Shown here: in pieces, positions 37,082 through 50,920 of the stretch
How the letters are laid out: each line of letters opens with the position of its first letter
How positions within the stretch are numbered: position 1 is the first letter of the stretch
Assembly (NCBI RefSeq): GCF_000502835.1
Contig: NZ_AYVL01000006.1
Location: forward strand, 66,146-130,145
Source of the DNA: Mesorhizobium sp. LSJC280B00
Lineage (GTDB): Bacteria > Pseudomonadota > Alphaproteobacteria > Rhizobiales > Rhizobiaceae
Length of the DNA: 64,000 nt
Direction of reading: 5' to 3'
Made by a program: the position numbers and the translations under genes
Notes under the pieces: model-generated
Database searches by the model: none
Told to the model about the DNA's origin: nothing
The model's input: only the letters and a program-made list of their open reading frames with translations

Positions 37082-37147
37082 ATGCATTTCGCTGGTCTGC
37101 GGCGCGCCCTGATGGACGATTCCCGCTCCCAGAGGAAGTCGTCATGA
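37082..37147 (+). CDS. Possible 21-residue leader peptide
   Basis: A short frame, [21 protein letters not shown], starts at 37082 after GGGAGG at 37069-37074. It ends in the TGA that overlaps the MaoC ATG (ATGA at 37144). Its good ribosome-binding site and coupled stop suggest it is translated and feeds ribosomes into the MaoC gene. It could equally be chance; no family is recognised. Confidence 0.35.
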
Positions 37148-37695
37148 GCGGTTTCGCGCCAACCGTGGGCGTGGCATCGACACACCCCGCCAACATGCCT
37201 AGGAATCACGCCGACCTTCCCGTCTGGAACGCGGAGAACTGGTTCTACGAAGACTGGCCGGTCGGCCAGAAGATCCGCTCGCTGCGCCGGACCATTGCCG
37301 AGGGCGACAGCCATCTCTTCAACACGCTGGTGCTCGACATCCATCCATACGTGCAGGACCAGATGTTCGCCGAGACGCAAGGCATTTTCGGCAAGCGGCT
37401 GGTGGCAGGGGCCTTCGTGTTCTCAGCCGGGCTCGGTCTCGTCGCCACCAATTGCATCAACGCCTTTTCGTATGGCTACGACAAATTGCGCTTCATCAAG
37501 CCGGTGTTCATAGGCGACACGATCTATTCGATCCGCTCCAACCTCGACAAGAAGCCAAAATACAAGGAAATGGGGCTGATCCGCGCCAGCTATGAAGTCT
37601 TCAAGGGTGAAGGCGAGCTCGTGCTTTATTGCGAGCACCTGCAGACGGTGAAGTACCGCAATCCGGCCGATTTCGCCGGCAAGACGGAGAAATAG
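37144..37695 (+). CDS. MaoC-like (hotdog-fold) dehydratase
   Basis: The 183-residue protein is a MaoC-type hydratase/dehydratase. It has [23 protein letters not shown] near the start and the hotdog core [23 protein letters not shown] near residue 115. Family members add or remove water on acyl-CoA esters. A near copy of the core occurs in the second MaoC at 53447-53926. It is followed after 3 bp by a CoA-transferase, so the two probably activate and dehydrate a carboxylic acid. Confidence 0.88.
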
Positions 37696-37698
37696 GCA

Positions 37699-38859
37699 AT
37701 GGCTGCCATTGCCGAACTGCCGCTGACCGGGCTCATCGTTGTCGATATGAGCCAGTTCTTGTCCGGGCCCTACTGCTCGCTCAGACTGCTCGACCTCGGC
37801 GCTCGCGTCATCAAGATCGAACGGCCGGATGGCGGCGACCTGTCGCGCCGGCTTTATCTCAGCGACACCGAGATCGGCGGCGATTCCACCATTTTCCATG
37901 CGATCAACCGCGCCAAGGAAAGCCTTTCCATCGACTTGAAGGACGAGGCCGACCTTGCGGCGCTGCGCGGCCTGCTGGCCAAGGCCGACGTGCTGATCCA
38001 GAATTTCAGGCCCGGCGTCATCGAACGCCTGGGCTTCGATTACGAGGCGGTGCGCAAGATCAATCCGCACCTGGTCTATGCCTCGATCAGCGGCTATGGC
38101 GACGAAGGCCCGTGGGTCAAGCGGCCCGGGCAGGATCTGCTGGCGCAGGCCCGCTCCGGCGTGATGTGGCTGAACGGCGACGAGGACCAAGGGCCGGTGC
38201 CCTTCGGCCTGGCGATCGCCGACATGCTGGCGGGTTCCGCCGCCGCGCAAGGCATCCTCGCCGCACTGGTGCGGCGCGGCGTGACCGGCAAGGGCAGCCA
38301 TGTCGAGACCAGCCTGCTCGAAGCGCTGGTCGACTTCCAGTTCGAGGTGCTGACCACGCACCTCAATGACGGGCGCCGGCTGCCGCGGCGGTCGAGCTTC
38401 CGCAGCGCGCACGCCTATCTCTCGGCGCCCTACGGCGTCTATCCGGCCAAGGACGGCTATCTGGCGATCGCCATGACGCCGATCTCGAAACTCGCCGATC
38501 TCCTCGGGCTCGAGGAGCTTGCGCCCTATCGCGACCAGCCGTCGACCTGGTTCACCGCCCGCGACGAGATCAAGGCGATCATCGCGCAAAAGATCGCAAC
38601 GAAGACGGTCGACGAATGGCTTGCCATTCTCGAGCCTGCCGACATCTGGTGCGCCAAGGTTTTGACCTGGCCGGAGATGATGGCCAGCGAAGGCTTCCAG
38701 GTCCTCGACATGCTGCAGACGGTGACGCGCGAGGATGACGTTTCGATCCTCACCACGCGCTCGCCGCTCAGGGTAGACGGCATCCGCGCGAAGGTCGAGC
38801 GGGCCGCGCCACGCATCGGCGAGCACAGCGCAAAAATCCGCGCGGAGTTCGGGCTGTGA
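37699..38859 (+). CDS. CaiB/BaiF-family (class III) CoA-transferase
   Basis: The 386-residue protein shows the family pattern: LIVVDMSQFLSGPYCSLRLLDLGARVIKIERPDGGD, KADVLIQNFRPGVIERLGFDYEAV and YASISGYGDEGPW. The catalytic Asp is expected in RPGQDLLAQARSG (about residue 150). The C-terminal half is shorter and less typical than in formyl-CoA transferase. It moves CoA between carboxylic acids and probably supplies the MaoC substrate. Its stop overlaps the next GTG start. Confidence 0.9.
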   Translation: MAAIAELPLTGLIVVDMSQFLSGPYCSLRLLDLGARVIKIERPDGGDLSRRLYLSDTEIGGDSTIFHAINRAKESLSIDLKDEADLAALRGLLAKADVLIQNFRPGVIERLGFDYEAVRKINPHLVYASISGYGDEGPWVKRPGQDLLAQARSGVMWLNGDEDQGPVPFGLAIADMLAGSAAAQGILAALVRRGVTGKGSHVETSLLEALVDFQFEVLTTHLNDGRRLPRRSSFRSAHAYLSAPYGVYPAKDGYLAIAMTPISKLADLLGLEELAPYRDQPSTWFTARDEIKAIIAQKIATKTVDEWLAILEPADIWCAKVLTWPEMMASEGFQVLDMLQTVTREDDVSILTTRSPLRVDGIRAKVERAAPRIGEHSAKIRAEFGL

Positions 38860-40022
38860 GCGACGTCACGCTCAAAGGCATGACCTGGAGCCATCCGCGC
38901 GGCTATGACCCGATGGTCGCCTGTTCGAGACTGTGGAAGCAACAAACTGGCATCGCCGTTGAATGGGACAAGCGCTCGCTGCAGGATTTCGAATCCTTCC
39001 CGGTCGAGGAACTGGCCCGTGCCTACGACCTGATCGTCGTCGACCATCCGCATGTCGGCCAGATCACCGCCGAGAACTGCCTGACGCCGCTCGATGTCGC
39101 CGGCCGGGAAGGCGAGCGTGCAGCACTTGCGGCGGGCAGCGTCGGCCGGTCCTTTCCGAGCTACAACTGGCAAGGCCGGCAGTGGGCGTTTCCGATCGAC
39201 GCGGCCAGCCAGGTGCAGGCATGGCGGCCCGACATGCTTTCGGCTGCGCCGGCGAGCTGGGCCGATGCCCTCGATCTGGCCCGGCAAGGCCACGTGCTGT
39301 TGCCGCTCAGGCCGCCGCATTCGCTGATGGTGTTCTACACGCTTGCCGGCAATCTCGGCCGACCCGCCGGTGAAGGCCCTGGCGACCATGTGGATCCGGC
39401 AGCGGGCAAGCAGGTCTTCGAGATGATGCGCGAGATCGCAGCCCTCGTCGACCCGGCCTGTCTTGGCATGGATCCGATCGCGGTTCTGGAGCAAATGGCC
39501 GGATCCGGCTCGCGGATCGCCTGCGCGCCGCTGATCTATGGCTATGTCTCCTATGCCATCGCCGGGTTTCGACCCAACCGCCTGGCTTTCGCGGATATTC
39601 CGGCCGCTGGCAATGCCGGCCCCAAAGGCTCGGCGCTCGGCGGCACCGGCATCGCCGTGTCGGCCTTCTCGAAGGCCGGACAGGAAGCAATCGACTTCGC
39701 CTACTGGATCGCCAGCGGTGACGTGCAGCGCGGCCCTTACGCCTCGGCCGGCGGCCAGCCCGGCCATGCGGCAGCCTGGGCGGATGCCGCCGTCAACGCC
39801 GCCGCCGGCAATTTCTACAAGGACACGCGGGCCACGCTCGAAGGTGCCTGGGTCAGGCCGCGGCACGACGGCTACATGGCGTTCCAGCAGGCGGCGTCCG
39901 ATCGCATCAATCTCGGCCTGAGCGAAAGGCACAATGCCGCTCGCGTCGTTGCCGATCTCAATCGCCTGTTTCGGGAGAGCCTTTCGACGCAGGTGTCCGG
40001 CGTTGCCGGCGGAGGAGCCTGA
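38856..40022 (+). CDS. Extracellular solute-binding-like protein lacking a signal peptide
   Basis: The 388-residue protein resembles family 1 solute-binding proteins (YDPMVACSRLWKQQTGIAVEWDKRSLQDF, AYDLIVVDHPHVGQI, GTGIAVSAFSKAGQEAIDFAYWIASGDVQRG). However, no signal peptide or hydrophobic N terminus is visible in MSDVTLKGMTWSHPRG. It starts with GTG inside the CoA-transferase stop (GTGA), which argues for this start. It may be a cytoplasmic ligand-binding protein. A separate exported binding protein follows, so this one is not simply the transporter's own. Confidence 0.75.
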   Translation: MSDVTLKGMTWSHPRGYDPMVACSRLWKQQTGIAVEWDKRSLQDFESFPVEELARAYDLIVVDHPHVGQITAENCLTPLDVAGREGERAALAAGSVGRSFPSYNWQGRQWAFPIDAASQVQAWRPDMLSAAPASWADALDLARQGHVLLPLRPPHSLMVFYTLAGNLGRPAGEGPGDHVDPAAGKQVFEMMREIAALVDPACLGMDPIAVLEQMAGSGSRIACAPLIYGYVSYAIAGFRPNRLAFADIPAAGNAGPKGSALGGTGIAVSAFSKAGQEAIDFAYWIASGDVQRGPYASAGGQPGHAAAWADAAVNAAAGNFYKDTRATLEGAWVRPRHDGYMAFQQAASDRINLGLSERHNAARVVADLNRLFRESLSTQVSGVAGGGA

Positions 40023-40042: not shown

Positions 40043-41230
40043 ATGAACAGCCTGATCCGCGGCCTTATGGCCGCAACCGCACTTGCATCGGTCACGACCA
40101 TAGCCTGCGCTCAAGACGTTTCGGGCGTGATTGCTGGATTGCCGACCGAACTGAAGGCGCAATATGACGGCGCGCCGCAAAAGGTGCTGCCGTCGGCCTG
40201 GGATAATTTCACGCCGCCGCCAAAGCCATGGAAATGGTGCCACTCCGAGTCCTACCAGGGCAATCCGTGGCGCGTCACCGTCACCAAGGAGTTGAAGCGG
40301 CTGGTCGACGGCCTGATCGCCGACGGCACCGTGGCGAGCTTCGAGGTGTCGGATTCCAACAACGACGCCAGTCAGCAGATCAACCAGATCCGCGCCTTCA
40401 TCGACAAGAAATGCTCGATCATCACCTCGATCCCCGGCTCGGCGACGGCGCTGGACGATGCCATCGATGCCGCAGCCAAAGCCGGCATCCCCTTCATCAC
40501 GGCAGCTGGGTCGGTGACCAGCCCGAATGCGATCAATGTCGATTCCAACTATGCGCGCTGGGGCTATGACATGATGACGGCGATCGGCAAAGCAATGCCG
40601 GACGGCGGCAGCGTGCTTCTGGTCGAAGGCATTGCCGGTCACCCGATCGTCGTGCAGGAGCGCCAGGGTGCCGACAAGGCGCTGGCCGAAAATTCAAAGC
40701 TCAAGGTCTCGCGCAGCGTCAACGGCAATTGGACGGCCAACGTTACCAAGACGGCGGTGCTGCAGGCAATCGCCACCAATCCGGCGCCGATCGATGCAGT
40801 GTGGACGACGGGCAGCGAAAGCCGCGTCGTCGCCGAGGCCTTTGCCGAGGCCGGCCGCCCTGCCCCGCTGATCACCGGCTCGATCACCGGCGATGCGCTC
40901 GGCTACTGGAAGGCCAATCCCGACAAATACCGCTTCGAAGGCCATGCGGTTCTGCCGCACTGGACGGCCGAGACGCTGTTTCGTGTCGGGGCGCGCATGC
41001 TGGATGGGCAGAAGCCCAAGCTCAACACGCTGCTGATCCCGATTCCGCCGGTGCACAATGCCGACCTCGGCGCCTGGTACAAGGACTGCATGACGCCGGA
41101 CGCCGTCTCGATCTTCCCGGTCCCGCCGAAGGATCCGATGCCGGAGGAATGGCTCGATGCCTATTTCGCCAATCCGGCACCGACCAAGGGCTGGGACTAT
41201 TCGAAGGTGCCGGACGCCTGCGCCAAGTAG
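40043..41230 (+). CDS. Ribose-type (Peripla_BP_4) ABC transporter substrate-binding protein
   Basis: The 395-residue protein has a signal peptide (LIRGLMAATALASVTTIACA, cleavage near residue 24). It has an RbsB-like fold: VASFEVSDSNNDASQQINQIRAFIDKKCSIITSIPGS, AGIPFITAAGSV and DAVWTTGSESRVVAEAFAEAG. GGAGG precedes the ATG. It is the exported binding protein of the split-ATPase transporter that follows. A strong hairpin sits directly after its stop, before the ATPase gene. Confidence 0.9.
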   Translation: MNSLIRGLMAATALASVTTIACAQDVSGVIAGLPTELKAQYDGAPQKVLPSAWDNFTPPPKPWKWCHSESYQGNPWRVTVTKELKRLVDGLIADGTVASFEVSDSNNDASQQINQIRAFIDKKCSIITSIPGSATALDDAIDAAAKAGIPFITAAGSVTSPNAINVDSNYARWGYDMMTAIGKAMPDGGSVLLVEGIAGHPIVVQERQGADKALAENSKLKVSRSVNGNWTANVTKTAVLQAIATNPAPIDAVWTTGSESRVVAEAFAEAGRPAPLITGSITGDALGYWKANPDKYRFEGHAVLPHWTAETLFRVGARMLDGQKPKLNTLLIPIPPVHNADLGAWYKDCMTPDAVSIFPVPPKDPMPEEWLDAYFANPAPTKGWDYSKVPDACAK

Positions 41231-41270: not shown

Positions 41271-41287
41271 CTACATCAGGATTGCTC

Positions 41288-42025
41288 ATGCTGGAAGTCC
41301 AGGCCATCTCGAAACGCTACGGCGAAACGATTGCGCTGGCCAATGCCTCCATCGCATTCCGCGCCGGCACGATCCACACCATCCTGGGCGAGAACGGTTC
41401 GGGCAAGAGCACCCTGGTCAAGCTGCTGTCGGGGATCGTGCAGCAGGACAGCGGCGCGATCCTGCTCGACGGAGCGCCCTTTACCGGCCTCTCGCCGGCG
41501 GCGTTCCAGACCGCCGGGTTGGCCACCGTGTTCCAGGAAGTGCTGATCGCGCCTGACCGTTCGGTGACGGACAACATCCTGCTCGGCCTCGACGGCCTGC
41601 TGACGCGCACCGTGCCGCGCGCCGAGCGGCGGCAACGCGCGCAAGCGGTGCTGAAGCGCTTCGCGGTGACCGAGATCCCGCTCGACCAGTTGGCCGGGCA
41701 AGTGCCGCTTGCGGTTCAGCAATTGGTAGTGCTCGCCCGCGCCGTGGTGCGCAGCCCGCGCATTCTCATCCTTGACGAGGTTACAGCGGCGCTCGACTTT
41801 GCCGATCGCGAGGCGGTCTTTGCCATGATGCGCAAGCTTGCCTCCGAAGGCTGCCTGATCCTGTTCATCACCCATCGCATGGACGAGGTGATGTCGCTTT
41901 CGGACCGGATTTCCGTGCTGCGCGGCGGCAGCGTGGTGACGACTGAGGAACGCGGCACGTCCACCGCATCCGAACTTCTCAGAGCGATGGCGCCACGCAC
42001 GGCGGCGGAGCTGGCGCATGGCTGA
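41288..42025 (+). CDS. Ribose-type ABC transporter ATPase, N-terminal half as a separate gene
   Basis: The 245-residue protein corresponds to the first nucleotide-binding domain of RbsA/MglA. It has Walker [14 protein letters not shown] (about residue 36), a degenerate signature [13 protein letters not shown] instead of LSxGxQQ, and Walker [13 protein letters not shown]. It stops at 42025 in the region that is the interdomain linker in RbsA. The second half follows as an independent frame overlapping by 8 bp. The ATG at 41288 is preferred over the TTG at 41282. Confidence 0.88.
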
Positions 42026-42761
42026 TCGCGCCAGCCTTTCGGTGCGTGGCCTGGTGATCGCGCCGGGCGCAAGCCCCATGACGCAAACCATTGCGCCGGG
42101 CGAGATCGTCGGCCTTGCCGGCCTCGACGGCCACGGACAGGAGCGGTTCCTGAAAGTGCTGGCCGGCCTGGAACGCCCGGCCGGCGGCGAGGTGACCGTC
42201 GAGGCGCCAACCGGAGCGCGCGCGATCACCAATTTCCGCAAGGCGGTCGCCGGCGGCATCGCCTATTTGCCGCGCGACCGGCGCACCACCGGCATTTTTC
42301 CGACCCAATCGGTGCTCGACAATTTTGCCGTCTCGACGCTGTCGCGCGATATGCGTTTCGGCCTGCTCAGCTTCGCCGCGCGGCGGCAGCGCTATGAGAG
42401 CTACCGGGACAGACTGTCGATCATCGCGCCACGGCCGGACGCCCCGATCACCACGCTTTCCGGCGGCAACCAGCAGAAGGTGCTGCTGGCCCGCGCATTG
42501 GCGCTGGAACCGGCGATCCTGCTCCTCAATGATCCGACGCGCGGTGTCGACGTGGCGACGCGCCATGTCCTCTACGATGTGTTTCGTGGACTGGCGGCGG
42601 ACGGCATGGCTCTGGTCATCCTGTCGAGCGAGATCGAGGAGATCCTGCTGCTTTGCCATCGCGTGCTGGTATTTCGCGAACAGCAGGTCGCGGCCGAAAT
42701 CACCGGAGACGCGATGAAAAGCGATACGGTGATCGCCGCCATGTTCGGACGCGCCGCATGA
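42018..42761 (+). CDS. Ribose-type ABC transporter ATPase, C-terminal half as a separate gene
   Basis: The 247-residue protein matches the second domain of RbsA/MglA. Its degenerate Walker [16 protein letters not shown] lacks GK[ST], as is normal for this half. [18 protein letters not shown], signature [15 protein letters not shown] and Walker [13 protein letters not shown] are present. Glu of DEPTRGVD is replaced by Asn in LLNDP. It overlaps the first half by 8 bp in another frame and ends in ATGA with the permease. Together the halves should make one working ATPase. Confidence 0.88.
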
Positions 42762-43708
42762 GCGGGTTGCGGCGCATGGCGGCGCGATGGCGCGGCGCTG
42801 GCTTTGCGGCAGTGCTGCTGGCCATCCTGATCGCGGTCAATCTGCTGCTCAATCCGGCGCGCTTCCATCCTGCCGCCTGGGGCGCGCTGATCGGGCTCGC
42901 CGCGCCGCTGATCGGCGCAGCGGTCGCCTCGGCTCCGGTGATCCTCGCCGGGCGCGGCGGCATCGACATTTCCGTCGGGCCGCTGATGGGCTTCGTCAAT
43001 GCGATGGTGATCCAGGTGCTGTTTCTCAGGCTTGGCATGTCTTCGCCGCTGTTCATCGTGCCGGCGGCGCTTCTGATCGGCGCGATCGTCGGCGCCGCCA
43101 ACGGCTTTCTGGCGACCATCGTCCGCATCCAGCCGATCGTCGCAACGCTCGGCACCTATCTGATCCTCACCGGCATGACGCTGACCATCCTGCCGGCGCC
43201 GATCGGGCCGGCGCCGGGCTGGCTGAAGGCAATGGCCGGACCCTGGTCGGCGCTGCCGCTGGCGCTGATCTTCCTGTTCTGGTGGCTGGTGCGGCAGACG
43301 CCTTATTACGACCAGCTGATGGCGGTGGGCAGCGACGATCGCGCCGCCTACACGGCCGGCGTTCCAGTCACCAAAGTCCGTTTCATCGCCTATGTCATGA
43401 CCGGCATACTTGCCGCCTGTGCCGGCCTGATGCTGACCGCGCTGATCGGTTCGGCCGACCCTAATATCGGGCCAAGCTACACGCTGATCGCGATTGCCGC
43501 GGTGGCGCTCGGCGGCGTCAGCCTTGCCGGCGGGCGCGGCGGGCTCGCCGGGGCCGCGATCGGCGCTGTCGACATCTTCCTGCTGCAGAGCGTGCTGACC
43601 GCCTTCAACGTCTCCACCTATGTGCTGCAGATCGCCTATGGCGCGATCCTGGTTGTGGCCGTGATCATGACGGCGCTGCAGGAGCGGCTATCAGGGCGGA
43701 AAGGCTGA
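42758..43708 (+). CDS. Ribose-type ABC transporter permease (first)
   Basis: The 316-residue membrane protein is a BPD_transp_2 permease. It has [53 protein letters not shown] (the RbsC-type PFIVTLGT region) and [17 protein letters not shown] (the GGxSxxGGxG region). About eight to ten hydrophobic segments are visible. The ATG at 42758 overlaps the ATPase stop; the frame upstream of it lies inside that gene. Confidence 0.9.
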
Positions 43709-43713
43709 GAAGC

Positions 43714-44679
43714 ATGAGCCGGAACTGGTTCCAATCCACCAATGCCCGCGTCGCCGGTGCCTTTGCCGTCGCTGTCGCCTTGCATGTCCTTGGCACCTTG
43801 CTCATCCCGGGCTACTCCCAGCCCTTCGCCATCCGGGCGCTGCTGGTGATCGCCTCGCTGCTGGCGGTGGCATCGATCGGCCAGACCCTCGTCGTCATTC
43901 TCGGCGGTATCGATCTGTCGATCCCCTTCATCATCGGCTTTGCCAATGTCGTTGCCGCACAGCTCTACGGCGACGGCTGGAATTTTGTTTTTGTCTGCGC
44001 GGCCGTCGTCGCGCTCGCCATACTGATCGGGGCGCTGAACGGCCTGATCTCGCGCGGGCTCGACATCCACCCGCTGATCGTCACGCTCGGCACCGGCATG
44101 ATCGTGCAAGGTGCCGTCCTGTTGTGGACCGGTGGCTTTCCGTCCGGATCGGCGCCTGCAGCGGTTTCCGCCTTCGTTTCGATCGGCGGTTCGGTCGGAC
44201 CGCTGCCGGTGCCGGGGCTGGTGCCATGCGTCGCGGTGCTGACCTTGCTGGTGGCGCTGGTGCTGGCGCGCACGCCCTACGGCCGCCGCCTCTATGCCCT
44301 CGGCAGCAATCCAGGTGCTGCGCCGCTGGCGCTGATCGATCCGGTCCGCATGTGGACCGTGACCTATGCCGCGAGCGCCTTCTTCGCCGCCGCGGCCGGC
44401 GTGCTGCTGCTCGGCTTCACCGGTTCGGCCTATGGCGATGTCGGCCAGCCCTATCTGTTCCAGACGATCGCAGCCGTGGTGGTCGGCGGCGCCGCCCTTG
44501 TCGGCGGCCGCGGCAGCTATTTCGGCACCATTGCCGGCGTCCTGGTGCTGACGGAAATCAACACGCTGCTGATCGGGCTCGGCTTCCGGCCCTCGACCGT
44601 GCAGGCGGCACTTGGCCTGGTCATCGTGCTCCTGGTTTCGCTCTACGGTCGCGAGCGGCACGTGTCGGCGACGATCTGA
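43714..44679 (+). CDS. Ribose-type ABC transporter permease (second)
   Basis: The 321-residue protein is a second RbsC-like permease: QTLVVILGGIDLSIPFIIGFANVVAAQLYG, LDIHPLIVTLGTGMIVQG, and AAVVVGGAALVGGRGSYFGTIAGVLVL. It starts 5 bp after the first permease, so the channel is probably a heterodimer, unlike the RbsC homodimer. It ends the operon and converges with the amidohydrolase. An inverted repeat GCCAAG/CTTGGC at 44714-44733 in the 65 bp between them may end transcription, but it lacks a clear T-run. Confidence 0.9.
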   Translation: MSRNWFQSTNARVAGAFAVAVALHVLGTLLIPGYSQPFAIRALLVIASLLAVASIGQTLVVILGGIDLSIPFIIGFANVVAAQLYGDGWNFVFVCAAVVALAILIGALNGLISRGLDIHPLIVTLGTGMIVQGAVLLWTGGFPSGSAPAAVSAFVSIGGSVGPLPVPGLVPCVAVLTLLVALVLARTPYGRRLYALGSNPGAAPLALIDPVRMWTVTYAASAFFAAAAGVLLLGFTGSAYGDVGQPYLFQTIAAVVVGGAALVGGRGSYFGTIAGVLVLTEINTLLIGLGFRPSTVQAALGLVIVLLVSLYGRERHVSATI

Positions 44680-44744: not shown

Positions 44745-45581
44745 CTACAAACTCCACAGCCGCTTGGCGTTGCCGGACAGCAGTTGTTGCCGTTCATCGG
44801 CGCTGGTGCCGGCAAGCAGCGCGTGCGTTGCCGCAATCCAGGTCGCAAGCCCGCCGCCGAGCGTGCAGACCGGCCAGTCGCTGCCCCAGACGACGCGGTC
44901 CCAGCCGAAGCATTCGATGGTGTGCTCGACATAGGGAAGCAGCGTTTCGACAGTCCAGGATCCGGCATCCGCATATGCGACCACACCGGAAATTTTGCCG
45001 ACGACGTTCGGGCGCCGCGCGATTTCCGCCATGTGCTCGCGCCAAGGGTGCTCGGCACCCCCCTTGATGTCCGGCACGCCGCAATGGTCGAGCACGAACT
45101 GCATGTCCGGCGCCAGGTCGGCGAGTGCCGTCGCCTTGGGGATCTGGTGCGGCAGAACGACAAGGTCGAAGGTCAGGCCGCTGCCGCCTAGCCGCTTGAT
45201 GTTTTCACGAAACAGCGCGCCCTCCGAAAGCTCGTCCGGCATGACGTGCAGCACGCGGCGAAAGCCCTTGACGAAAGGATCGGCGCGCTGGCGCTCGAGA
45301 TAGGCGGCAAAGCCTGGCTCTTCCGGACGGCAGGAGGCAATCGCTCCCCTCAGCAAACTGCCCTTTTGCTGCGAGAGCGCTTTGACATGGCCGGTTTCGG
45401 CCTCGATGTCGGCTGGATCGACATCGACTTCCATGTGCAACGCGCCCTCGATGCCAGCCCGGCGCGCCTGGAGTGCATATTCGTCGTAGGAGAAATCGCG
45501 GTTGAGTGCCGGCACGCCGGCCAGCCAGGGATAGCGTAGCGCGGACTGGTCGATCAGGTGCAGATGGGTGTCGAAGATCAT
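44745..45581 (-). CDS. Amidohydrolase-family lactone hydrolase (COG3618-like)
   Basis: The 278-residue TIM-barrel protein has the metal motif DTHLHLID at the start, GFRRVLHVMPDE, LDHCGVPDIKGG and the closing WGSDWPVC, as in L-fuconolactonase, L-rhamnono-lactonase and 2-pyrone-4,6-dicarboxylate hydrolase. It probably opens a sugar lactone to the acid. That fits the enolase-type dehydratase and rhamnose mutarotase on the other side of the IclR gene. AGGAG precedes the start. It is on the same strand as iclR, 67 bp downstream of it. Confidence 0.87.
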   Translation of the reverse strand: MIFDTHLHLIDQSALRYPWLAGVPALNRDFSYDEYALQARRAGIEGALHMEVDVDPADIEAETGHVKALSQQKGSLLRGAIASCRPEEPGFAAYLERQRADPFVKGFRRVLHVMPDELSEGALFRENIKRLGGSGLTFDLVVLPHQIPKATALADLAPDMQFVLDHCGVPDIKGGAEHPWREHMAEIARRPNVVGKISGVVAYADAGSWTVETLLPYVEHTIECFGWDRVVWGSDWPVCTLGGGLATWIAATHALLAGTSADERQQLLSGNAKRLWSL

Positions 45582-45648: not shown

Positions 45649-46437
45649 TCATCGCGATTGCTTGACGGTCGACCCCGCCAGTTGCGACAGCTTTTCGGTC
45701 GCTGCCAGCAGCAGCTCTATCGTCCTGGTGATGTCGGGCGCCTTGGGTGCGTTGACCAGGGTTATGTAGGGGATCGACAGTGCGGCGATCGCCTTGCCGT
45801 CCGAGCCGAGAACGGGTGTCGACAGGTTGAACACGCCTGCCGTCTGCATCGACGCCATCATCTCGTAGCCGCGTTCCCGGATCTGGTCGAGGCGGGCGAA
45901 GAATTCCGGCGATTGCGGTGGCTTGTCGGTGCTGCGCAGATGTTCTGAGATCATCATCTGGCGCTCGTCCGGCGGGCGGAACGCCAGCAACACATGGCCG
46001 GAGCCGGTGTCGAACAGGCTGATATGCGAGCCGACGCGGATGGAGATGCCCCAGTAATCCGGCGCCTCCTGCTGTGCGATCACCACCGCGGAACCGCGGT
46101 CGAAGACGACGAGCTGATTTGCCTGCTGTGTGGTTTCGGCCAGTTCGCGCATCAGCGGCGTCGCATAGGAAACCAGCCGGCGCACCGGCGCGTGCAGCTG
46201 CGCCAGGCCAAACAGCTTGAGCGTCAGCGAATAACGGTCGCCATCCGGCCGCGTGACATAGCCGCGCCGCACCAGCCGGTCCAGCATGCGGTAGAACTCG
46301 TTCGGGCTGCGGTCGAGCTTCTTGGCGATTTCCGCCTGCGTCAGGCCGCCGTCGACGCCGGCCAGCAGCTCGAGAATGTCGAGCCCCTTGTCCAACGCCG
46401 GGGCTCGATAGCGGTCATCTTCCTCGTCCTCTGCCAT
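45649..46437 (-). CDS. IclR-family transcriptional regulator
   Basis: The 262-residue protein has an IclR winged helix (LDILELLAGVDGGLTQAEIAKKLDRSPNEFYRMLDRLVRRGYV, about residues 20-65) and an IclR effector domain (YWGISIRVGSHISLFDTGSGHVLLAF, GVFNLSTPVLGSDGKAIAALSIPY). The ATG at 46437 is chosen because GGAG lies just upstream; an ATG at 46467 would add ten residues that cover the site. It is divergent from the CUT1 sugar ABC operon and probably controls it and the lactone hydrolase. Confidence 0.9.
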   Translation of the reverse strand: MAEDEEDDRYRAPALDKGLDILELLAGVDGGLTQAEIAKKLDRSPNEFYRMLDRLVRRGYVTRPDGDRYSLTLKLFGLAQLHAPVRRLVSYATPLMRELAETTQQANQLVVFDRGSAVVIAQQEAPDYWGISIRVGSHISLFDTGSGHVLLAFRPPDERQMMISEHLRSTDKPPQSPEFFARLDQIRERGYEMMASMQTAGVFNLSTPVLGSDGKAIAALSIPYITLVNAPKAPDITRTIELLLAATEKLSQLAGSTVKQSR

Positions 46438-46462
46438 TGGGCTTCTCCAGTGAATTTCACCT

Positions 46463-46540
46463 TTCATATACGCATAACGGCATTGCTTCCGGAAGAACTT
46501 TCGGCTTGACGATCCTATAAATGTTTTGTTTGTATATGAA
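46463..46540. promoter_or_regulatory. Inverted repeat arms in the IclR/ABC divergent region
   Basis: TTCATATAC at 46463-46471 and GTATATGAA at 46532-46540 are perfect inverse copies, 60 bp apart, one near each divergent start. TTGACG at 46506-46511 may be a -35 for the plus-strand operon, but no convincing -10 is seen at the right spacing. The arms may be two operator sites for IclR. Confidence 0.4.
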
Positions 46541-48055: not shown

Positions 48056-48952
48056 ATGAAAGGCTGGAGACCTTCGCCGCCATTGCTGCTCCTGCTGCCG
48101 GCGGTGATCGTTCTGGCGGCGGTGGTGGTGGTGCCGCTGCTGCTTTCGCTCTATTCCAGCTTCACGCCGTTCCGGCTGACCAGGCCGGAGACGTTCTGGG
48201 TCTTCATCGGCGCGCGCAACTACGTCACCATCCTGACCAGCCGCGCTTTCTGGGTCGCCTTTGCCCGCACCGTGGTGCTGCTGACGGTGGCGCTCAACCT
48301 GGAAATGCTGATCGGGCTCGGGCTGGCCCTGCTGGTGGAGAAGGCATCGCGCGGCCAGCGGATCCTGCGCACCATCATGATGTTTCCGATGATGTTTTCG
48401 CCGATCCTCGTCGGCTTCCAGTTCAAATTCATGTTCAATGACAATATCGGCCTGGTGAACAATGCCCTGCAGGGGCTCGGCCTGACCGATCGCGCCATCC
48501 CGTGGCTGATCGACGGCAATCTCGCCTTCATCGCCATCCTGATCGCCGAGATCTGGTCGTCGACCTCGGTGTTCGCGATCCTGATCCTGGCCGGGCTGCT
48601 GGCGATGCCGCGCGAACCGGTCGAGGCGGCCCGCGTCGACGGCTGCACGCCGTGGCAGACATTCCGCTATGTCACCTGGCCGTTCATCATGCCGTTTGCC
48701 TTTATCGCCATGACCATCCGCTCACTCGACGTCGCGCGCGCCTATGACATCGTAAAGATCATGACCGACGGCGGCCCCGCCGGCCGCACCGAACTGGTCT
48801 GGACGCTGGTCGCCCGCACCGCCTACAGCGACGCCAGGATGGGAATGGCCAATGCCATGGCCTATTTCTCGATCCTGCTGTCGATCCTGTTCACCGTCTA
48901 TTTCTACCGCAAGCTCGCCGCAGCGCGCACGCAGATCGCGGCGGAGTGGTGA
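48056..48952 (+). CDS. CUT1-type sugar ABC transporter permease, MalF/UgpA-like
   Basis: The 298-residue membrane protein has six hydrophobic segments and the coupling loop LAMPREPVEAARVDGCTPWQTFRYVTWPFIMPF (about residues 180-212) typical of CUT1 permeases. The N terminus PLLLLLPAVIVLAAVVVVPLLLSLYSSFTPF is the usual first membrane segment. The second permease begins 2 bp after it. Confidence 0.92.
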   Translation: MKGWRPSPPLLLLLPAVIVLAAVVVVPLLLSLYSSFTPFRLTRPETFWVFIGARNYVTILTSRAFWVAFARTVVLLTVALNLEMLIGLGLALLVEKASRGQRILRTIMMFPMMFSPILVGFQFKFMFNDNIGLVNNALQGLGLTDRAIPWLIDGNLAFIAILIAEIWSSTSVFAILILAGLLAMPREPVEAARVDGCTPWQTFRYVTWPFIMPFAFIAMTIRSLDVARAYDIVKIMTDGGPAGRTELVWTLVARTAYSDARMGMANAMAYFSILLSILFTVYFYRKLAAARTQIAAEW

Positions 48953-48954
48953 GG

Positions 48955-49821
48955 ATGGACCAGAACAGCCTGCATCGCGTCGGCAACAAAGCGCTCGGAA
49001 TCGTTCACGGCATCGGACTGTTCCTGGCCATGCTGGTCATCTGCCTGCCCGGCATCTGGATCGTGCTGTCTTCGCTGCGGCCGACCGTCGAAATCATGGC
49101 CAAGCCGCCGGTGTGGATCCCGCAGCAACTCTCGCTCGACGCCTACGTCGCCATGTTCAGCGGCGTCGGCCAGGGCGGCATTCCGGTGCTCGATTACTTC
49201 CGCAATTCGCTGATCATCTCGGTGACCTCGACGGTGATCGCCATCGTCATCGGCATGGCCGGCGGCTACGCCTTTGCGCGCTACCGCTTTCGCGCCAAGT
49301 CGGCGATGTTCCTCGGCCTGATGCTGACGCGCACGGTGCCCGGCATCGCGCTGTCGCTGCCGCTGTTCTTTGTCTTTGCGCGGCTCGGCATCATCGACAC
49401 GCATTTCGGGCTGATCCTGGTCTATGTCGCGCTCAACGTGCCGTTCACCGTCTGGCTGATCGACGGCTTTTTCCGCCAGGTGCCGAAAGATCTCGCCGAA
49501 GCCGCGCAGATCGACGGCTGCACGCGCTGGCAGGCCTTCTGGCAGGTCGAGTTTCCACTCGCCGGGCCCGGCATCGCCTCGGCCGGCATCTTTGCCTTCC
49601 TCACCTCCTGGAACGAGTTCGCGCTCGCCTCGCAGCTGACGCGCTCGATCAACTCCAAGACCCTGCCGGTCGGCCTGCTCGACTATACGGCCGAATTCAC
49701 CATCGACTGGCGCGGCATGTGCGCGCTCGCCGTGGTCATGGTCATACCGGCGCTCACGCTTACCTTCATCGTCCAGAAACACCTCGTCGGCGGCCTCACT
49801 TCCGGCGCGGTGAAAGGCTGA
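48955..49821 (+). CDS. CUT1-type sugar ABC transporter permease, MalG/UgpE-like
   Basis: The 288-residue membrane protein has the MalG-type coupling loop VPKDLAEAAQIDGCTRWQAFWQVEFPLAGPG (about residues 177-207) and ends in the usual KHLVGGLTSGAVKG. The ATG at 48955 follows GGTGAGG; two in-frame GTG codons directly upstream are less likely. The ATPase gene starts immediately after its stop. Confidence 0.92.
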   Translation: MDQNSLHRVGNKALGIVHGIGLFLAMLVICLPGIWIVLSSLRPTVEIMAKPPVWIPQQLSLDAYVAMFSGVGQGGIPVLDYFRNSLIISVTSTVIAIVIGMAGGYAFARYRFRAKSAMFLGLMLTRTVPGIALSLPLFFVFARLGIIDTHFGLILVYVALNVPFTVWLIDGFFRQVPKDLAEAAQIDGCTRWQAFWQVEFPLAGPGIASAGIFAFLTSWNEFALASQLTRSINSKTLPVGLLDYTAEFTIDWRGMCALAVVMVIPALTLTFIVQKHLVGGLTSGAVKG

Positions 49822-49822
49822 C

Positions 49823-50920
49823 ATGGCAACCGTATCGCTCAAGAACCTCACCAAAAGCTACGGCCCGGTGGCGGTGGTGCACGGCATCGACCTCGAGGTC
49901 GCCGACCGCGAGTTCATCGCGCTGGTCGGGCCGTCCGGTTGCGGCAAGTCGACAACCCTGCGCATGATCGCCGGCCTCGAGGCGATCAGCGACGGGATCA
50001 TCGAGATCGGCGGCCGCATGGTCAACGACCTGCCGCCGCGCTCGCGCAACATCTCGATGGTGTTCCAGTCCTATGCGCTCTATCCGCATATGACCGTGCG
50101 CGAAAACCTCGGCTTCTCGCTCAAGATAGCCGGCGCCGCGAAGGAAGAAATGGACCGTCGCGTCGCCGAAGCGTCCGGCATTCTCGGCCTCGACCAATTG
50201 CTCGACCGCCGGCCGTCGCAGCTGTCCGGCGGACAGCGCCAGCGCGTCGCCATGGGCCGCGCCATCGTGCGCGATCCCGACGTCTTCCTGTTCGACGAGC
50301 CGCTTTCCAATCTCGACGCCAAGCTTCGGACGCAGATGCGCACCGAGATCAAGAAACTGCATGCCAAGGTCCGGTCGACGGTGATCTACGTCACCCATGA
50401 CCAGGTCGAAGCGATGACATTGGCGGACCGTATCGTCATCATGCGTGACGGTTTCATCGAGCAGGTCGGCACACCCGACGAGGTCTTCCGCCGGCCGCAG
50501 ACACGCTTCGTCGCCGGCTTCATCGGCTCGCCGCCGATGAACCTGCATGAGGCGGTTGTCGACGACGGACAGTTGCTGTTCGCCAGCGGCGAGAGATTGC
50601 CTCTGCCCAGCCAGTTCAAGGCCAATGTCGGAACCGGCGACAAAGTCGTGTTCGGCCTCAGGCCCGACGACATCTATCCGACCGGGCATGGCATCAGCTC
50701 CGGCGAAGACGTCGACGTCCACCAGGTGGAGTTGCCGGTGACCGTCACCGAGCCGCTCGGCAACGAGACGCTGGTGTTCGCCGAATTCAACGGCAGCGAC
50801 TGGGTATCGCGGATGCTCAATCCAAAGCCGCTGAAAGCCGGCGACCGGGTCAAGATGAGCCTGGACCTGTCGCAGGCCCATCTGTTTTCCGCCGAAACAG
50901 GCAGGACATTGCGAGGTTAA
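49823..50920 (+). CDS. CUT1-type sugar ABC transporter ATPase, MalK/UgpC-like
   Basis: The 365-residue ATPase has Walker A GPSGCGKSTTLR (about residue 37), signature LSGGQRQRVAMGRAI, Walker B VFLFDEPLSNLD and a C-terminal regulatory OB region from about residue 240 (FIGSPPMNLHEAVV, KVVFGLRPDDIYP). It powers the two permeases upstream. The enolase gene begins 4 bp later. Confidence 0.94.
   Translation: MATVSLKNLTKSYGPVAVVHGIDLEVADREFIALVGPSGCGKSTTLRMIAGLEAISDGIIEIGGRMVNDLPPRSRNISMVFQSYALYPHMTVRENLGFSLKIAGAAKEEMDRRVAEASGILGLDQLLDRRPSQLSGGQRQRVAMGRAIVRDPDVFLFDEPLSNLDAKLRTQMRTEIKKLHAKVRSTVIYVTHDQVEAMTLADRIVIMRDGFIEQVGTPDEVFRRPQTRFVAGFIGSPPMNLHEAVVDDGQLLFASGERLPLPSQFKANVGTGDKVVFGLRPDDIYPTGHGISSGEDVDVHQVELPVTVTEPLGNETLVFAEFNGSDWVSRMLNPKPLKAGDRVKMSLDLSQAHLFSAETGRTLRG

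Follow-up and report, generated by a model that had tools for sequence, protein, structure and literature searches.

ATPases of the CUT2 importers, among them RbsA, MglA, XylG, AraG, YtfR and LsrA, carry two nucleotide-binding domains (NBDs) on a single chain of about 500 aa. Related systems make use of single-NBD ATPases: FrcA-type proteins are single-NBD CUT2 ATPases that act as homodimers, and LivG/LivF-type systems have a binding protein alongside two genes each for NBDs and permeases. Table rows of one published source (PMC2821768) classify Brucella RbsA-type proteins as fused 'ABC2' proteins; for one ribose importer they give a single 'ABC'. Among the open-access papers that our literature searches listed, a scope outside which most subscription journals lie, no title or abstract opening describes a split RbsA/MglA-type ATPase.

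The 64,000-nucleotide stretch of Mesorhizobium sp. LSJC280B00 DNA analysed here (the window) encodes an ATPase of this kind in two pieces. NBD1, the first half of a CUT2 (RbsA/YtfR-type) ATPase, occupies positions 41288–42025 (+ strand, ATG start, 245 aa) and NBD2, the second half of the same ATPase, positions 42018–42761 (+ strand, ATG start, 247 aa). From the sequence evidence presented below, we consider it highly probable that this pair represents a single, old and inherited fission at the linker, whose two products would be translated in a coupled manner, associate as an NBD1–NBD2 heterodimer, hydrolyze ATP at one site and drive import.

Two halves of a CUT2 ATPase in overlapping frames

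The reading frames of NBD1 and NBD2 differ and have eight bases in common, ATGGCTGA (42018–42025, + strand), which hold both the NBD2 start and the NBD1 stop; a TTG at 41282, six bases 5' of the NBD1 ATG, is an alternative start. A preliminary description of this DNA had reported two ABC halves in different frames with an 8-bp overlap, and both open reading frames were found as described. It had also placed the split in the linker, in agreement with our alignment to fused relatives, where the NBD1/NBD2 junction maps to the inter-domain linker.

Both halves contain an ABC_tran domain (Pfam; E 1.1e-25 for NBD1 and 5.4e-18 for NBD2), and each aligns with its own half of the CUT2 models, the N-half for NBD1 and the C-half for NBD2. 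On the YtfR model (NCBIfam, 492 positions), NBD1 covers positions 1–238 and NBD2 positions 269–490, and other CUT2 models (LsrA, AraG, XylG and RbsA) are among the best NCBIfam matches of both halves. The best NCBIfam scores, 190.9 bits for NBD1 and 172.3 for NBD2, do not reach the cut-offs curated for full-length proteins (YtfR 850, AraG 689, LsrA 586). The locus thus resembles the double-NBD systems in its domains, in its uneven motifs and in its Peripla_BP_4 and BPD_transp_2 partners, but differs from them in that two chains encoded by overlapping genes take the place of one polypeptide of about 500 aa.

With regard to the motifs, NBD1 has an intact Walker A, a Walker B with its glutamate (LDE) and the H-loop histidine, together with a degenerate signature. 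NBD2 has an intact signature (LSGGNQQ) together with a degenerate Walker A (GLDGHGQ), an H-loop serine and a Walker B in which LNDP replaces the LDEP found in many fused members. An intact Walker A in the first domain, with a degenerate Walker A and an LSGG-type signature in the second, is the CUT2 pattern. Our motif table comprises 46 split and 24 fused rows. The complementary motifs are nearly invariant, and the fused relatives L139–L144, L154 and L211–L213 have most of the same asymmetry, LNDP included. The asymmetry therefore predates the split, and the fission would have altered packaging, not chemistry. In this regard, the full Walker A of the first half and the full signature of the second, to which the preliminary description drew attention, are indeed present but are not special to the split, since they are ordinary in the fused family; they are evidence of intact halves and not of a specialness brought about by the split.

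The motif pattern suggests a heterodimer of NBD1 and NBD2 in which one ATP site is canonical and the other degenerate. In such an arrangement, the hydrolytic composite site would be built from the Walker A, Walker B, glutamate and histidine of NBD1 together with the LSGGNQQ of NBD2, and a non-hydrolytic composite site from the Walker A and LNDP of NBD2 facing the degenerate signature of NBD1. This obligate heterodimer would sit on a heteromeric permease pair and be fed by a CUT2-type binding protein. AlphaFold2 single-chain models are of high confidence, with a mean pLDDT of 92.6 for NBD1 and 90.7 for NBD2, and fold and sequence searches of solved structures with both halves matched general ABC ATPases. 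A search of solved structures with the fused member L187 at E 1e-30 returned no chain named as an RbsA-type ATPase among the matches listed.

The split pair shares with FrcA-type ATPases the presence of one NBD per chain, and one gene of that type (L167) is found in its own genome. L167, however, retains its own LSGG signature, whereas the split pair, in which each half is incomplete in place of one NBD with all motifs, apparently needs two different and complementary NBDs. The gene complement of the locus (two NBDs, two permeases and a binding protein) is that of LivG/LivF-type systems, but the halves match CUT2 models better than the related models listed (NBD1 scores 190.9 bits with YtfR and 111.6 with UrtE) and each is without motifs that its partner keeps. 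The closest fused sequences found in our tree are the LNDP relatives L211, L212, L213 and their kin. The L211–L213 proteins have the NBD1 Walker A, LNDP and GLxGxGQ in common with the split pair, and a binding protein and two permeases are likewise encoded near them; they and their kin differ in being one continuous frame of about 500 aa. What appears to be new is the two-gene architecture, the motif chemistry being that of the known fused family, and the step beyond what is known is modest to that extent.

Conservation, distribution and ancestry of the split

The split gene is present in all 80 named loci, which are the best 80 of 129 relatives chosen on NBD1 alone (52–97% identical in NBD1) and include records of Mesorhizobium, Rhizobium, Shinella, Kaistia, Devosia, Paracoccus and Tabrizicola. 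The closest of them, L031 from Mesorhizobium sp. LSHC420B00, is 97% identical in NBD1 and has an identical 8-bp overlap. Across the 80 loci the overlap measures 8 bp in 70, 11 bp in seven and 4 bp in three. A larger parse of 172 loci comprised 146 split, 25 fused (34–44% identical to NBD1) and one single-NBD locus. The 146 split loci represent 108 distinct nucleotide sequences, many unnamed loci sharing assemblies with named ones; their overlaps measure 8 bp in 119, 11 bp in 19 and 4 bp in eight, and NBD1 and NBD2 are neighbors in every one of them. Parsing of another 48 loci, which include repeats, added 13 split and 35 fused cases. In the 172 and 48 loci together, all those with an NBD1 at least 47% identical are split, and both architectures are present between 42 and 46% (split L220 at 42% and L138 at 44%; fused L211 at 46%). 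Since the identity ranges of split and fused loci overlap in this interval, the boundary of the clade depends on the tree.

The dN/dS values of the window sequence against eight relatives are 0.09–0.18 for NBD1 and 0.06–0.22 for NBD2, and the identity matrices of the two halves are correlated (r 0.93 for 1035 pairs; at most 0.25 after permutation). Purifying selection acts on NBD1 and NBD2 alike; they have been maintained and have diverged in step.

The first tree, of 46 non-redundant split and 24 fused proteins, placed all split proteins on one side of a branch with support of 100/100. Its split rows were drawn from the 146 loci, the omitted ones being at least 88% identical to a kept row, and its fused rows were 24 of 25, L171 (read as 807 aa) falling outside the length filter. 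The nearest fused groups (L211, L212, L213 and kin) came from a later profile search, and the first tree, built without them, has a bare stem of 2.06. For the second tree, we removed nine fused rows, which were near copies or sat on long branches, along with 12 close split rows, and added 17 rows. Here, 38 split proteins form one clade (100/98) against 28 fused rows, seven of which lie on the split side of the midpoint root. This placement is to be read with the midpoint rooting itself, with several long fused branches (1.62 for L211) and with a weak fork (84/29) among the nearest fused groups. As the split proteins make up one clade and share their side of the midpoint root with fused relatives, a single fission is the likeliest and shortest history, in which an ancestral double-NBD CUT2 (RbsA/YtfR-type) ATPase would have been broken once, at the linker. 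Since neither tree divides the split proteins into more than one clade, independent origins of the split were rejected.

Taken together, the split is an old and stable variant common to many rhizobia and their relatives. The preliminary description had favored a stable fission over decay, a view that fused homologues in related strains would have refuted. It is upheld, the reverse having been found: all 80 named loci are split, none of the parsed loci is fused at an NBD1 identity of at least 47%, dN/dS stays between 0.06 and 0.22, and the split proteins make up the single 100/98 clade.

The distribution of the operon is patchy even inside the genus, with matches in 54 of 146 genomes at E 1e-60; all 34 of the 56 genus matches that were parsed are split. 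At the level of the family, a sample of 394 genomes gave matches at 1e-55 in 42, some fused genes being among them. A class-wide search with a single protein, under even genome sampling and a strict cut-off of 1e-58, recovered the own genome only (1/385), from which the split family is to be regarded as rare, not absent. A profile search of the phylum, in which few candidates per genome were scored, matched 40 of 398 genomes at 1e-62; among the matches listed, six belong to the split family (408–415 bits), and the remaining ones have an open frame of at least 504 aa, the 14 that were parsed (L179–L192) all being fused. The corresponding order search matched 102 of 297 genomes at 1e-62, and six more split (L193–L198) and 12 fused loci (L199–L210) were parsed among the matches listed.

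Plasmids carry homologues as well: matches at 1e-50 come from five plasmid records, of which one is typed as conjugative. Three of the five were examined, one being unannotated; in the two annotated records the overlapping ATPase gene pair is visible, each half being named 'ATP-binding cassette domain-containing protein'. On one Mesorhizobium sp. B2-1-8 plasmid (L221, 1539–2440), two short annotated genes, for a hypothetical protein and a substrate-binding domain protein, overlap 5' of the split pair. The own genome of the window holds fused, split and single-NBD forms together, the last being L167, a single-NBD CUT2-like ATPase gene followed, by eye, by a permease-like frame. Genome G1299 has both the fused close relative L211 and the split member L197, a natural pair for a comparison of architectures.

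Translation of NBD2 and alternative explanations

The NBD1 stop codon is TGA in 142 of the 146 split loci, and the NBD2 start codon (140 ATG, six GTG) overlaps the end of NBD1 in all of them. Within the 3' end of NBD1 lies a Shine-Dalgarno-like GGCGGAG (42004–42010, + strand), seven bases 5' of the NBD2 ATG. Over 46 loci, the energy of the 16S-tail duplex 5' of the NBD2 start averages -7.12 kcal/mol versus -2.94 at random in-gene sites, and it is -6 or lower at 30 of 46 NBD2 starts versus 193 of 1380 random in-gene sites. The NBD1 start, at -3.18, does not stand out from the control. Synonymous recoding of the stretch upstream of NBD2 yielded a mean of -4.99, with the observed mean reached in none of 40 replicates, so that the signal comes partly from the amino acids and is partly, it appears, selected. 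It is weak in some members (-3.5 in L050 and -3.0 in L082, among 20 listed). Overlapping stop and start codons with an internal Shine-Dalgarno-like site are sequence signs expected of a coupled pair. In line with this notion, ribosomes would finish NBD1 at its TGA and restart at the overlapping NBD2 ATG, aided by the nearby upstream GGAG, and both halves would be produced from one operon in similar amounts.

Alternatively, programmed ribosomal frameshifting could join the two frames into one double-NBD protein, an idea that suits both the tight overlap and the nearly end-to-end fit of the halves to one model. The frame relation, however, is not conserved, NBD2 lying in +1 relative to NBD1 in the 8- and 11-bp classes and in +2 in the 4-bp class. 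In addition, a scan of the last 60 nt of NBD1 across 46 non-redundant loci turned up no -1 slippery heptamer, in two of these loci the open NBD2 frame extends no more than 3 nt 5' of the start codon, and NBD2 retains a start codon in 146 of 146 split loci. The evidence that bears on +1 frameshifting comes from the varying frame relation and from how far the NBD2 frame stays open. We have rejected programmed frameshifting as highly unlikely on the varying frame relation and on 0/46 loci with a -1 heptamer in those 60 nt; the Shine-Dalgarno-like site of NBD2 and the variable frame relation favor reinitiation or coupled initiation instead. As for a sequencing error or a recent frameshift decay of a formerly fused gene, a one-base mistake could in principle make such an overlap, but an overlapping junction in 80 of 80 named records and dN/dS far below 1 in both halves bring the probability of this explanation close to nil, and it was rejected on the conservation of the split and the selection on both halves.

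The opposite history, in which the genes were never one, the halves having separate single-NBD origins and the fused relatives being later fusions, finds a precedent in the single-NBD ATPases of related systems (LivG/LivF and FrcA) and in the single-NBD L167 of the own genome. Nevertheless, each half best matches its own half of the fused CUT2 models (YtfR, AraG and LsrA), and the fused proteins L211, L212 and L213 have LNDP and further family motifs in common with the split pair and fall with it on one side of the midpoint root. Fission is thereby the shorter history, and separate origins are very unlikely. That each half models as a complete ABC ATPase alone could be taken to mean that they act as separate homodimers or in different transporters. 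Against this stand the degenerate signature of NBD1, the absence from NBD2 of both the Walker A lysine and the H-loop histidine, the adjacency of the genes in all 146 split loci and their divergence in step, on which such independent action is exceedingly improbable.

Whether the locus defines a distinct CUT2-derived importer class, with four different core subunits (two permeases and two NBDs) in a fixed 1:1:1:1 ratio and a single catalytic ATP site, is to our mind an evenly balanced matter. On this reading it would amount to a natural dissection of RbsA, in which the NBDs need no covalent link and each transporter is served by one RbsA equivalent; the two halves may also be open to separate regulation or replacement. 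In a long-lived natural split each NBD can be mutated, tagged and counted alone, so that one could test directly how many ATPase chains a transporter contains and what the degenerate site does. For annotators, the locus is a caution that such gene pairs are not necessarily pseudogenes.

Gene neighborhood and putative substrate

The ATPase genes are flanked by the partners of a CUT2 importer. A periplasmic substrate-binding protein (Peripla_BP_4; 40043–41230, + strand) precedes NBD1 and has a homologue in 80 of 80 named loci. Its best match among solved structures is 4pe6, a 'Putative ABC transporter' chain that names no substrate, and it is without a match in L150–L152. Downstream, permease 1 (BPD_transp_2; 42758–43708, + strand, 79 of 80 named loci) shares 4 bp with NBD2 and is followed by permease 2 (BPD_transp_2; 43714–44679, + strand, 77 of 80). 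A 4-bp overlap also joins the CoA-transferase and 388-aa genes described below. The presence of two permease genes is not a consequence of the split, since 14 of 15 fused loci compared also match both permeases.

Upstream on the + strand lie genes for a MaoC-like dehydratase (37144–37695; homologue in 49 of 80 named loci, in flanks of at most about 4 kb), a family III CoA-transferase of the CaiB/BaiF type (37699–38859; 68 of 80) and a 388-aa protein resembling family-1 extracellular solute-binding proteins (38856–40022; 63 of 80). On the - strand, beyond the permeases, are an amidohydrolase (Amidohydro_2; 44745–45581; 47 of 80) and an IclR-type regulator, a candidate regulator of the locus (45649–46470; 50 of 80). 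The counts for the binding protein, both permeases, the CoA-transferase and the 388-aa protein accept homologues on either strand, and the absences include loci truncated by contig ends. The CoA-transferase and MaoC-like neighbors suggest that the putative substrate is a compound handled as a CoA ester; adding the amidohydrolase, our guess would be an acid or lactone used via its CoA ester.

The 388-aa protein has no Pfam match, shows weak similarity to sugar-binding proteins and, by eye, has no evident signal peptide; a binding-protein-like protein of this kind may be cytoplasmic, which would be unusual. In the Shinella/Rhizobium group L105–L109, the homologues of this protein and of the CoA-transferase are divergently oriented upstream of the split operon. 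Likewise divergent are the annotated extracellular solute-binding protein and CoA transferase of L223 (538–5977). In these loci the neighbors are kept and their order is changed. The window also contains a second importer operon (48056–50920) with two BPD_transp_1 permeases and a MalK-like ATPase, followed by enolase-family and GFO/IDH-type genes.
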